From Muribaculaceae bacterium (lineage in GTDB: Bacteria; Bacteroidota; Bacteroidia; Bacteroidales; Muribaculaceae): a stretch of DNA of 64,000 nt. The stretch spans positions 18,437 through 82,436 of the forward strand of contig JAIDTL010000134.1 of assembly GCA_029060725.1 (NCBI GenBank), read 5' to 3'. Positions 24,090-58,744 of this stretch are shown piece after piece. Numbering within the stretch: the stretch's first letter is position 1; each line of letters begins with the position of its first letter. The notes under the pieces are model-generated. The model was not told the origin of the DNA, searched no databases, and saw only the letters and a program-made list of their open reading frames with translations. Position numbers and translations under genes: made by a program.

Positions 24090-24187
24090 GCTTTATGATA
24101 TAGTCAAGATTTTGGCACATCTAACTGAACATCTTAGTTTATAGTTAATAATTTATAGTTAATAGTTAATAGATCATCGTTGACAAA

Positions 24188-30056: not shown

Positions 30057-30140
30057 TCACGATCTCTCATTTTTCCACTTAAAAACAGCAATCGCCGCCA
30101 AAGAGGCGGCGATGAAAGCGATTATTATGTATTCCACCAT
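30057..30140 (-). CDS. 27-aa hydrophobic peptide (copy B)
   Basis: MVEYIIIAFIAASLAAIAVFKWKNERS*; one TM helix and basic tail; not in the ORF track because too short. Confidence 0.45.
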   Translation of the reverse strand: MVEYIIIAFIAASLAAIAVFKWKNERS

Positions 30141-30213
30141 CGTTAATCGTTGATAGTTGATCGTTGATCGTTGATCGTTTATCGTTGATAATTGATCGTT
30201 GATCATTGATCGT
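30141..30213. repeat. Tandem GTTGATCGTTGATCGTT simple repeat
   Basis: Roughly 10-11-bp period degenerate repeats immediately after gmd. Confidence 0.8.
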
Positions 30214-31304
30214 TACTTGACGATCCCCTTTTCGAGGTATTCTTCGAGGTTCAGGCGTACTTTTTCACCGGCACGTTCTACTGCAACTTTCGCCATATCT
30301 GCATCGACCATAAGGTTGACAAGCTGCTCAAAAGATGTCTTCTTTGTCGGATCCCAACCCAATTTCTGCTTAGCCTTTGTCGGGTCTCCCCAGAGATTCA
30401 CAACGTCTGTCGGACGGTAGAAGTCAGGGGAAACTTCAATTACTACCTTACCCGTAGCCTTGTCAATGCCTTTCTCGTCAACTCCCTCACCCACAAATTC
30501 CAGTTCGATTCCGGCTCTACGGAAAGCATAGAGACAGAATTCGCGTACTGAATGCTGTTCACCTGTAGCGATGACATAGTCTTCGGGTTCCGGTTGCTGA
30601 AGAATCAGCCACATACATTCCACATAGTCTTTTGCATATCCCCAGTCTCGAAGCGAATCGAGGTTGCCGAGATAAAGTTTCTCCTGCTTTCCCTGCGCTA
30701 TGCGGGCGGCAGCCAGAGTAATCTTGCGGGTCACAAAAGTCTCCCCGCGACGCTCGCTTTCGTGATTGAAGAGGATTCCCGAGCAAGCAAACATATTGTA
30801 AGCCTCGCGATACTCCTTCACAATCCAGAAACCGTAAAGCTTCGCAACGGCATACGGAGAGTAAGGGTGGAACGGAGTATTCTCATTCTGTGGCACCTCT
30901 TCCACCTTGCCATATAGTTCTGAAGTCGAAGCCTGATAGAATCGGCAAGTCTCAGCAAGACCGCATTGCCGTATACCCTCCAAGAGACGGAGCACGCCCG
31001 TGGCATCCACATCAGCGGTAAACTCAGGGGAATCAAAGCTGACCTGCACATGACTCTGCGCAGCGAGGTTGTACACCTCATCAGGACGAACTTTATTGAG
31101 CACCTGTATAATCGACATCGAATCGCCGAGGTCAGCATAGTGGAGGTGGAATTGAGGATGACCCTCGAGGTGTGCGATACGCTCACGGAAATCCACAGAA
31201 GAACGGCGTATGGTGCCGTGTACGTCATATCCTTTCTCTATTAGGAGTTCAGCAAGATACGACCCGTCTTGGCCTGTGATACCTGTGATTAGAGCTGTTT
31301 TCAT
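30213..31304 (-). CDS. gmd: GDP-mannose 4,6-dehydratase
   Basis: [33 protein letters not shown]. Confidence 0.97.
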
Positions 31305-31384
31305 ATATATTCTTGAGTTTTTTCGTAGTTATCAAAGTTCTCAGAGTTGTCAGAGTTTTCGTAATTTTCAGATTTAGTAACAGA

Positions 31385-32405: not shown

Positions 32406-32412
32406 AATTTAA

Positions 32413-32466
32413 GTATTAGAGCAGAATGCTCAGTATTAAGTATTAGCGCGAATGCGCAGTATTTGA
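32413..32466. repeat. AGTATTA hairpin array C (left flank of four-helix-bundle ORF)
   Basis: AGTATTA-GAGC agaat GCTC-AGTATTA / AGTATTA-GCGC gaat GCGC-AGTATTTG. Confidence 0.85.
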
Positions 32467-32529: not shown

Positions 32530-32931
32530 ATGAATAAGAACGAAACGCAATTAGCTAAAACCCCTGATCTCAAAGCTGATTTGGCGGAAGCTTTCGCCAT
32601 TCGTATAGTGAAACTTGAAAAGTATTTGAGAATAGAAAAAAAGGAAAAACGAATCAGCGATCAGATATTCCGATCAGGAACCTCGATAGGAGCTAATATT
32701 TTTGAAGCGAAATATGCAGAGAGTACTTCAGATTATATACATAAGCTCTCCATTTCACAAAAAGAGGCAAATGAAACAATTTTTTGGCTTCGCTTGCTTC
32801 GAAATACCAGTTATATTAATGAAGAAGAATTCGAATCTCTTTATAAGGATTGTAGTAATATTTTGAGAATACTTACCCATGTCATCACCAGTGTTCGCGA
32901 AAATCAGAAAAAGAAATCAAAAAAGCCTTAA
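32530..32931 (+). CDS. Four-helix-bundle protein (S23/23S rRNA intervening-sequence protein family, Avd-like)
   Basis: FAIRIVKLEKYL; QIFRSGTSIGANIFEA; SDYIHKLSISQKEANETIFWL. Confidence 0.9.
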   Translation: MNKNETQLAKTPDLKADLAEAFAIRIVKLEKYLRIEKKEKRISDQIFRSGTSIGANIFEAKYAESTSDYIHKLSISQKEANETIFWLRLLRNTSYINEEEFESLYKDCSNILRILTHVITSVRENQKKKSKKP

Positions 32932-32959
32932 AGTAATCTACTATCGTTCTATAAGCACC

Positions 32960-33029
32960 AATACTGCGCAACGCGCTAATACTGCGAAGCTAATACTGCG
33001 AAGCTAATACTGCGCAAAGCGCAAATACT
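32960..33029. repeat. TAATACT hairpin array D (right flank of four-helix-bundle ORF, inverted relative to array C)
   Basis: AATACT-GCGC aac GCGC-TAATACT-GCgaaGC-TAATACT-GCgaaGC-TAATACT-GCGC aaa GCGC-AAATACT, ending at the neighbouring gene's stop codon. Confidence 0.85.
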
Positions 33030-34277
33030 TTATCTCCTCCTGATTTTGATTGGGATGGTGCCAGAAGGGATTTTGTCGACGACCAAAAGCAGATGCCCTC
33101 CCCCACCTGCACCAAGCATCTTCCAGGCCAATGCCCTGTCTTTCCAATTATCAATATGCTCTTGCACTCCGGGTTGCATCATAGCCGGAAACATTGCTAT
33201 CTGGGCGTTGAAGGAGTCTCGGAAAGCATTTGCAAAAGTTTCGAGATCTTTCATCATTATCGCATCCCAGCAACGTGCTGCCGCATCTGTCAGGTCTTTG
33301 ACCTTATCGGAAGTGATATCCTTTCCCTCAACTACCGAGCATCCCGGTCTTCGCGGGAACATTGGCACTACGCAGAGGTGCTGTTCAAGCCAATCAAGGA
33401 TGTCATCGTCATGGATCGTCTCGATTTTCTCCGGCCAGTAGTGCCCGTCATAGTAATGGCGTGACAAACCGGAGATGCAGATGCCGATTGCATCCTGAGC
33501 GCCAGAGACATGACCGGTATTCTCAGGATCATTCTCAAAACAGAACAGCATGCGGGCCAGCATCTCCTCATTGTAGGCAGGAAGTTCAAAAGGCCATATC
33601 TTCTTAGCAGCATTTCGTGTAGATGTCGACATGCCACCGCGCTCCATAAACTCGTGAGTCGGCTCTATAGACGCGGTTATCGCCCACCCTGCGCCATGCT
33701 TCGACACATACGGCTGGTCGATCCAAGTTCCGGCTATATCCACCCGATAGGGCAAGCGAGATGTATTAGCGAAGTCTTGCTTCGCAGTATTAGCGCACTC
33801 TGTGCGCAGTATTTGAGCCGTTGGCTCAGTATTTGCTTCGCAGTGTGAATTATACTGCGTCTCTGACGCTAATACTGCAGTCTCACCGCTAATACTGTGC
33901 GAAGCACTAATACTTACATATTCTATCCCCCGTGATTCACACGCCTGCTTCTTAAGCTCGTTTCCACCATTCGAGTTGACCACGAATACATCGGGCTTGA
34001 TCCGGTCAAGCTCCGAGAGAAAATCCAATATCCCACATCCGGAATTGACAAAGGCGTCTTTCACATACCTCAAAGCCTTCACCATATAAAGCCGTTCCTG
34101 CTCGGAAGCGACCGGCTTGCGACCTTTAAGCCTCTCGAAATTCACATCCGACCCAATCCCCACATACAGCTCCCCATACTTAGCAGCCTCCTTCAAGAAA
34201 GCCACATGCCCGGAATTAAGCAGGTCAAAGAACCCCGTAGCAAACACCTTACAGGATTTTCTCATCGCCATTGTCAT
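33030..34277 (-). CDS. Bifunctional cytidylyltransferase-like / GHMP sugar kinase with in-frame repeat-derived linker
   Basis: GFFDLLNSGHVAFLKEAAKYGELYVGIGSD nucleotidyltransferase; RLPYRVDIAGTWIDQPYVSKHG and MLGAGGGGHLL GHMP motifs. Confidence 0.8.
   Translation of the reverse strand: MTMAMRKSCKVFATGFFDLLNSGHVAFLKEAAKYGELYVGIGSDVNFERLKGRKPVASEQERLYMVKALRYVKDAFVNSGCGILDFLSELDRIKPDVFVVNSNGGNELKKQACESRGIEYVSISASHSISGETAVLASETQYNSHCEANTEPTAQILRTECANTAKQDFANTSRLPYRVDIAGTWIDQPYVSKHGAGWAITASIEPTHEFMERGGMSTSTRNAAKKIWPFELPAYNEEMLARMLFCFENDPENTGHVSGAQDAIGICISGLSRHYYDGHYWPEKIETIHDDDILDWLEQHLCVVPMFPRRPGCSVVEGKDITSDKVKDLTDAAARCWDAIMMKDLETFANAFRDSFNAQIAMFPAMMQPGVQEHIDNWKDRALAWKMLGAGGGGHLLLVVDKIPSGTIPIKIRRR
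33762..33914. repeat. AGTATTA/TAATACT hairpin array E, 153 bp inside CDS 33030..34277
   Basis: Seven variable stems (e.g. GCGAAG/CTTCGC, GCGCAC/GTGCGC, GAGCC/GGCTC, GCGTC/GACGC, GTGC/GCAC); orientation flips at AGTGTGAATTATACT (33842-33856). Confidence 0.88.
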
Positions 34278-34534: not shown

Positions 34535-34735
34535 GAAAAAAGCACTCAGGCGTGTCACCACTTTGCCGGTCTGAGTGCGTGAAAGGGATATGCGTTGTGC
34601 GTGACGCGTGGGTGCGTAATGCGTAGGCGTATTCCGCTTTCGAGGGGAGTCCCGGAGAGATCCGGGGGTGTATAGAGCCACGGATACGGTCATGCCGCGG
34701 CTGTCAGGGTCGATACACCGTTCCAACGATTAACG
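34535..34735 (-). other. Structured non-coding-like region ending in a terminator-like hairpin
   Basis: Minus strand: GTGTAT...ATACAC outer pairing, CCCGGA/TCCGGG, then GCACTCAG...CTGAGTGC followed by TTTTTT. Confidence 0.4.
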
Positions 34736-35064
34736 ATTAACGATAAACTATCAATTAATAGCCATTAACCAAAGAATAAGGGCTCTTATTCGCCTGGAAT
34801 CGCGTATACTTGCTTGCCATAGACATGATTGCCGCGAGCTTCGGCAACCGGCTGGGTTTCGTTTCCGAGTGCAAAGTTAGGGTGTGTTTTGAGGAGACGC
34901 CCCTTATCGCGCGAAAAAAGTTACAAAAAGGTAATCTGTAGTTGGATGCTTACGACCGTAAAGTCACATCTATTTTTTTGAGCCAACCAAATTACGCCTT
35001 TGGACAGGAACAAAAGGTTTAACTTGCAGCAACGAAACCGACCCCAAAATATCAAAACTTACGT

Positions 35065-58616: not shown

Positions 58617-58693
58617 AGCGATGGCAAAGCCGGAGGTGAATATATATGAATGTGTGGATATGAAGCCCTCCTGGCTTGCCATGCGCGGTATGT
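58617..58693. repeat. ~77-bp repeat copy 1 flanking GIY-YIG gene
   Basis: AGCGATGGCAAAGCCGGAGGTGAATAT...GGATATGAAGCCCTCCTGGCTTGCCATGCGC. Confidence 0.85.
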
Positions 58694-58744
58694 GAACGAT
58701 TAACGATGAACGATAACTTATCAACGATAATGATGAACGATTTA

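Follow-up and report, generated by a model that had tools for sequence, protein, structure and literature searches.

In-frame insertion of palindromic DNA is known to give rise to protein sequence mainly in Rickettsia, whose palindromic elements were reportedly described by Ogata (2000, 2002). These elements are ~150 bp of palindromic DNA that lie in frame in protein genes or between genes and are tolerated by the host protein (PMC10969869). The 23S rRNA intervening sequences that carry S23 in Coxiella, Leptospira, and Salmonella have inverted repeats and form stem-loops that are cut by RNase III (PMC4990558). Tandem heptamers, for example TAACTGA, are present in Beggiatoaceae, Cyanobacteria, and Bacteroidetes; the 2015 study of these repeats found no evident mechanism and does not mention S23 (PMC4679880).

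We analyzed 64,000 nucleotides of a Muribaculaceae bacterium contig, hereafter the window, in which an array of small hairpins lies inside an enzyme gene that adjoins an S23 element. The features concerned, in window positions, are:

32412-32465, plus strand: hairpin array flanking the S23 gene on the left, in AGTATTAG orientation
32530-32931, plus strand: S23 (four-helix-bundle) gene of the 23S rRNA-intervening-sequence protein family, 133 aa (PF05635, E=4.5e-25; TIGR02436, E=3.8e-28)
32958-33029, minus strand: hairpin array flanking the S23 gene on the right, in CTAATACT orientation, directly adjacent to the enzyme gene's stop codon
33030-34277, minus strand: host gene with cytidylyltransferase-like and GHMP-kinase-like domains, 415 aa (PF01467, E=1.9e-12; TIGR00125; weak fucokinase C-terminal match)
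33762-33914, minus strand: in-frame, putatively solo hairpin array, 153 bp or 51 codons, enzyme residues 121-171
33842-33856, no strand: near-palindromic centre of that array, AGTGTGAATTATACT, the point in the sequence at which unit orientation flips

Like the rickettsial elements, the array at 33762-33914 is palindromic, in frame, and tolerated, and arrays of this family are also found between genes. Unlike them, it is made of many small hairpins separated by constant spacer words, it belongs to a family of variable length linked to S23, there is no single palindrome of ~100-150 bp and no conserved peptide, and several reading frames are used. The rickettsial parallel drawn in the initial annotation therefore holds for behavior but not for membership; judged by the traits described for those elements, the best reading is that the array resembles them but is not one. 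Its spread within one genus does not suggest a rickettsial origin.

As in the 23S rRNA intervening sequences, the neighboring element of the window has an S23 ORF between inverted repeats that are able to pair. In contrast to those sequences, it lies between protein genes rather than in a 23S rRNA gene, its flanks are locus-specific arrays of words or hairpins, and gene-less copies exist; the S23 ORF belongs to this adjacent element, and the 153-bp array itself has none. With the heptamer repeats the family shares arrays of ~7-nt words and a patchy spread, mostly intergenic with some arrays in genes, but it is tied to S23 here and its words are separated by hairpins in two lineages. Head-to-tail words of ~7 nt (STRR-type) are not what is seen at 33762-33914, where 8-nt words are split by hairpins, whereas ordinary S23 flanks do show the STRR-type period of 7. 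PARCELs are likewise coding tandem DNA with dyad symmetry and a patchy distribution; however, they encode a conserved 25-residue amphipathic motif, and the array peptide is not conserved. REP/BIME and MITE sequences are also short dispersed palindromes, but in the arrays the stems vary while the words are constant, and no REP tag or terminal repeat was recognized. The constant terminal inverted repeats of a MITE were absent among the arrays compared.

The array and its host enzyme

The coordinates, length, and frame of the array within the minus-strand gene, as well as its quoted peptide, had been given correctly in the initial annotation, and so had the flip in orientation: three AGTATTAG/AGTATTTG-hairpin units lead to the centre at 33842-33856, beyond which lie three inverted units (CTAATACT...). 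Each unit consists of the word AGTATTAG or AGTATTTG and a small hairpin with a stem of ~4-6 bp. The stems vary between units yet stay complementary, and the intervening words are constant. The window contains 32 copies of AGTATTA compared to 10.95 expected, a count reached by 0 of 100 shuffles. A scan of the full assembly for the two-word pattern gives 10 matches, all within three arrays spanning 1.5 kb, versus 1 for the reversed control. The RNA structure prediction that the initial annotation had called for gave -56.2 kcal/mol for the array compared to -39.0 kcal/mol for shuffled sequence (z = -4.9), so the array folds far better than shuffles. A search of Rfam returned one chance match only (E=0.16). 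A CRISPR was ruled out, as the sequence between the words is palindromic and a cas gene was not noticed nearby. The array is free of stops in the enzyme frame. In all six frames, array units contain 145 stop codons versus 361.5 expected, a deficit that may merely reflect the repetition of a few stop-poor units and is therefore not used as evidence of selection.

The array sits between the cytidylyltransferase-like and GHMP-kinase-like halves of the 415-aa enzyme. The cytidylyltransferase-like family match covers residues 13-101, and the C-terminal half weakly resembles the GHMP part, or C-terminal portion, of fucokinases. Thus, of the two domains between which the linker had been placed, the nucleotidyltransferase is a clear Pfam match, but the GHMP half matches weakly. 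The gene lies in a capsule-type sugar-nucleotide cluster, with neighbors that we take, from sequence knowledge, to be GDP-mannose dehydratase-like and GDP-fucose synthase-like. The predicted structure of the protein, built on a shallow alignment of 9 sequences, has two folded parts and a mean pLDDT of 66. Its region of lowest confidence, residues 126-183 (pLDDT 24-37 in blocks 131-180), covers nearly all of the array-encoded stretch. Such low values fit a disordered linker, with which they are compatible without being proof of it.

Arrays in relatives of the enzyme and in other genes

The linker is ordinary, of the REPEAGLQARSTTALR kind, in orthologues outside the genus, as it is in a set of type-A paralogues within the genus, one of which is present in the window genome (G000:C93). 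Distant orthologues therefore do not share the array-encoded linker sequence, as they would be expected to if it were ordinary protein. Within type B, arrays lie in frame at the same site of the linker in five genes from four genomes (the window gene, G005:C228, G653:C18, G012:C52, and G012:C243), and the frame is preserved in every case. The hairpins differ among these genes, except that G012:C52 and G012:C243, which are 90% identical and are distinguished at one hairpin by an in-frame gap of 15 nt, share most units. Linker peptides are not conserved among orthologues. Two type-B genes of G012, C256 and C185, have no array; C256 has 87% nucleotide identity to the array-bearing C243 outside the linker. 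No target-site duplication was seen at the G012 linker site compared. In G005:C228 and G012:C52, an additional array is present at the extreme N-terminus of the open frame.

The expectation that the insertion would be absent elsewhere was thus borne out by the ordinary orthologues but not by relatives that have arrays with different hairpins at the same position. Such arrays indicate an old insertion followed by turnover of units rather than a fresh single insertion in the window genome. Repeated independent insertion into the linker was suspected at first; the tree, with modest branch support, and a shared left boundary favor one old insertion. From these sequences, the simplest history would be that an array entered once, in the ancestor of type B, that two copies later lost it, and that units turned over, with two gains as a possible alternative.

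A survey for other coding sequences with in-frame arrays, also proposed earlier, yielded a UpxY/NusG-like gene (NF033644 match) in the relatives G005 and G012, in which arrays occupy several loops. The G005 gene (C278, 720 aa) has several hairpin arrays in frame, and in its G012 orthologue (C219, 627 aa) hairpin arrays are mixed with plain heptamer arrays, e.g., GACTTAAGACTTAAGACT, GTCCAACGTCCAACGTCC, and AACGGACAACGGACAACGG; most relatives of this gene are ~470-560 aa. In-frame palindromic sequence is therefore found in two unrelated genes, and the array units are read in different frames. A further repeated stretch, encoding VGTHGS.VRVPS, was observed among the inserts of the UpxY-like gene (L233:2649-4808, L243:2702-4582). 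Arrays that seem to extend the MS-channel, epimerase, U32 peptidase, and RNase H genes at the N-terminus lie upstream of the likely starts and were rejected as in-frame cases.

The word family was followed in genomes that are mostly metagenome assemblies. A relaxed core, AGTATYRG, has a match in 19 of 111 genus genomes, and in 7 of these 111, the window genome included, pattern and inspection revealed repeated matches with paired stems. The stricter AGTATT words gave no arrays in the other sampled genomes of the family (198) and order (393), and family- and order-wide pattern matches outside the window genome look like chance. The core word tracks the genome, not the site: it is TTAG/TTTG here, TCGG/TTGG in G005, G012, G653, G654, and G669, and mixed in G671. 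The six other array-carrying genus genomes have their own core, AGTATCGG/AGTATTGG. When sites were fetched and classified, arrays in relatives proved to be mostly intergenic or just upstream of start codons, and this word family recurs at many sites that are unlinked. There are 57 distinct unit spacers. In the 48 that are at least 11 nt long, stem positions 2-4 are paired in 94.4% of cells compared to 48.9% (maximum 62.5%) with shuffled arms. Several pair types occur per stem position, indicating that pairing has been kept through changes on both sides.

An exact search for AGTATTWG arrays in 84,980 species genomes gave ~100 matches, nearly all of them plain tandem repeats or chance. One match with the paired stems of this family, CAMWQF010000322.1, is by match the same contig as G671 C322; another, from a Treponema assembly (L134), is a uniform tandem repeat whose stems are also paired. 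Several contigs of G653, G654, and G671 (L223-L258) terminate in or close to hairpin arrays, which probably makes the array counts for these assemblies too low. In G005, a run of 21 words (C48:48019-48338, L230:3520-3839) has spacers that are mostly GCGCTTCGCGC and GCTACGC, which suggests a recent tandem expansion.

S23 genes and their flanks

The nearest solved relative of the S23 gene product is PDB 2rld (E=3.2e-27), and the 620-nt S23 element folds better than shuffles (z = -4.2). The window genome has three array sites: the enzyme linker and both sides of the S23 gene, the latter inverted. The same words bracket 32530-32931 at 32412-32465 and 32958-33029, which supports the link drawn in the initial annotation between the linker array and the arrays around the four-helix-bundle gene.

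The link between arrays and this gene is general, S23 flanks being inverted in samples from the genus and from the phylum. Of the 111 genus genomes, 44 have S23 genes, as do 194 of the 248 phylum genomes, and many copies are often present. The upstream flank was compared with the reverse complement of the downstream flank, either of the same gene or of other genes (swapped), using S23 loci that were the best-scoring matches and not a random sample. In the genus, the score was 17.5 for the same locus and 9.6 when swapped (n=23), with scores of at least 14 in 70% versus 4.7% (permutation p=0.0002); the corresponding phylum values were 15.1 and 9.5 (n=30), and 47% versus 2.8% (permutation p=0.0002). 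Control genes gave no signal (9.3 versus 10.6 swapped, n=25; 0% versus 4.5% at a score of at least 14; p=0.65). Autocorrelation of the S23 flanks peaks at lags 7 and 14. Together, the same-locus scores and the period of 7 indicate a general pattern in which inverted arrays of ~7-nt words enclose S23 genes, with words that are specific to each locus among the S23 genes of Bacteroidota (L259-L288, L326-L355). A literature search, with subscription papers and preprints mostly outside its scope, found no paper joining S23 genes with word arrays.

The S23 gene lies between hairpin-type words in G000, G005, and G012 and between plain AGTATAAAGTATAGAGTAAAGAGTAAG words in G653; S23 copies in G654 and G669 are weak matches only. 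The S23 element lies 3' of the enzyme gene in the window and 5' of it in G005, G012, and G653. Although its side differs, gene order differs too, so this is only suggestive of movement.

Explanations for the in-frame array

We consider it somewhat probable that 33762-33914 belongs, as a gene-less ('solo') array, to a dispersed family of repeats tied to S23 and is lodged in a tolerant linker, with units that have turned over since. Such a family would consist of short words separated by small hairpins; S23 (four-helix-bundle) genes generally lie between two inverted word blocks, and solo arrays would be gene-less relatives of these. One solo array would have lodged in the flexible linker of a single enzyme paralogue lineage and been tolerated as an in-frame, stop-free sequence that contributes no more than disordered linker, after which units would have been gained, lost, and homogenized lineage by lineage. 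The family may spread as a unit, perhaps helped by S23, its RNA, or a stem formed by the flanks, and either template-switch correction or structural selection may keep the stems paired; we infer both the role of S23 and the mechanism of mobility. The linker itself is presumably translated and neutral. Counted against this reading, neither a transposase nor a target-site duplication nor a recent clean insertion was found, hairpin arrays in relatives mostly lack an adjacent S23 gene, and the arrayless C256 and C185 fall inside an array-bearing clade whose support is modest.

The array might instead have grown locally, by slippage and template switching at quasi-palindromes in a fast-evolving linker, with the shared core due to exchange between neighboring repeats and nothing moved from the S23 element. 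This account, which we judge unlikely but credible, would suit the confinement of the window genome's three arrays to 1.5 kb, the fast turnover of units (as in the in-frame 15-nt gap between C52 and C243), and a core type that tracks the genome, as conversion between arrays would produce; template switching would also preserve the complementarity of stems. However, a word family found at many unlinked sites in relatives must disperse somehow, and the UpxY-like gene has several different word families in several loops. The strong fold (z = -4.9) and compensatory stems could also mean that the hairpins are kept for a role in the mRNA, such as attenuation, RNase III processing, or translation pausing between domains, with the peptide incidental; S23-family elements in 23S rRNA are stem-loops that RNase III cuts (PMC4990558). 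Yet the gene is intact in close paralogues that lack the array, the stems are short, the G005 C228 array folds no better than shuffles (z = -0.6), and Rfam holds no match, making an RNA element improbable.

Palindromic, dispersed, in-frame insertions at tolerant sites are also what a non-autonomous transposon of the MITE or Rickettsia-palindromic-element type would leave, given a transposase in trans. We regard this as very unlikely, since no constant terminal inverted repeat, fixed length, or target-site duplication was seen and the words differ between genomes. Many array contigs in relatives end in arrays, as might happen in a metagenome assembly artefact, but arrays at the same site in three further genomes, in frame in all, leave that explanation with almost no credibility.

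A broader and quite tentative proposal is that, in Bacteroidota and perhaps in other phyla as well, S23 genes form together with the orphan word arrays, heptamer or hairpin, one unrecognized class of self-propagating element, comprising an S23 gene between inverted arrays together with gene-less arrays that spread, also in frame into protein loops as new protein sequence. The data point to a little-known spreading repeat able to become part of proteins and provide a separate, Bacteroidales case of in-frame palindromic insertion, with arrayless close paralogues and at least two host genes. The rule of inverted S23 flanks gives a handle on the role of S23 (four-helix-bundle) genes outside rRNA and on the origin of tandem heptamer repeats, for which the 2015 study offered no mechanism (PMC4679880). 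Both can now be tested by straightforward comparisons and genetics.

A second hairpin family, with the unrelated core CTTACCC and long variable stems, was found in G035, where it brackets an S23 gene and forms two solo intergenic arrays. Its loci are:

C87:25276-25911 (L273)
C78:6519-6641 (L359)
C87:32022-32143 (L368)

Short-word arrays, mostly of heptamers and without an S23 gene, were also observed in the window at 24135-24172, 30139-30214, 31320-31372, 34725-34748, and 58693-58741; one of the window's short-word arrays, (ATCGTTG)11, lies just after the GDP-mannose dehydratase-like gene.
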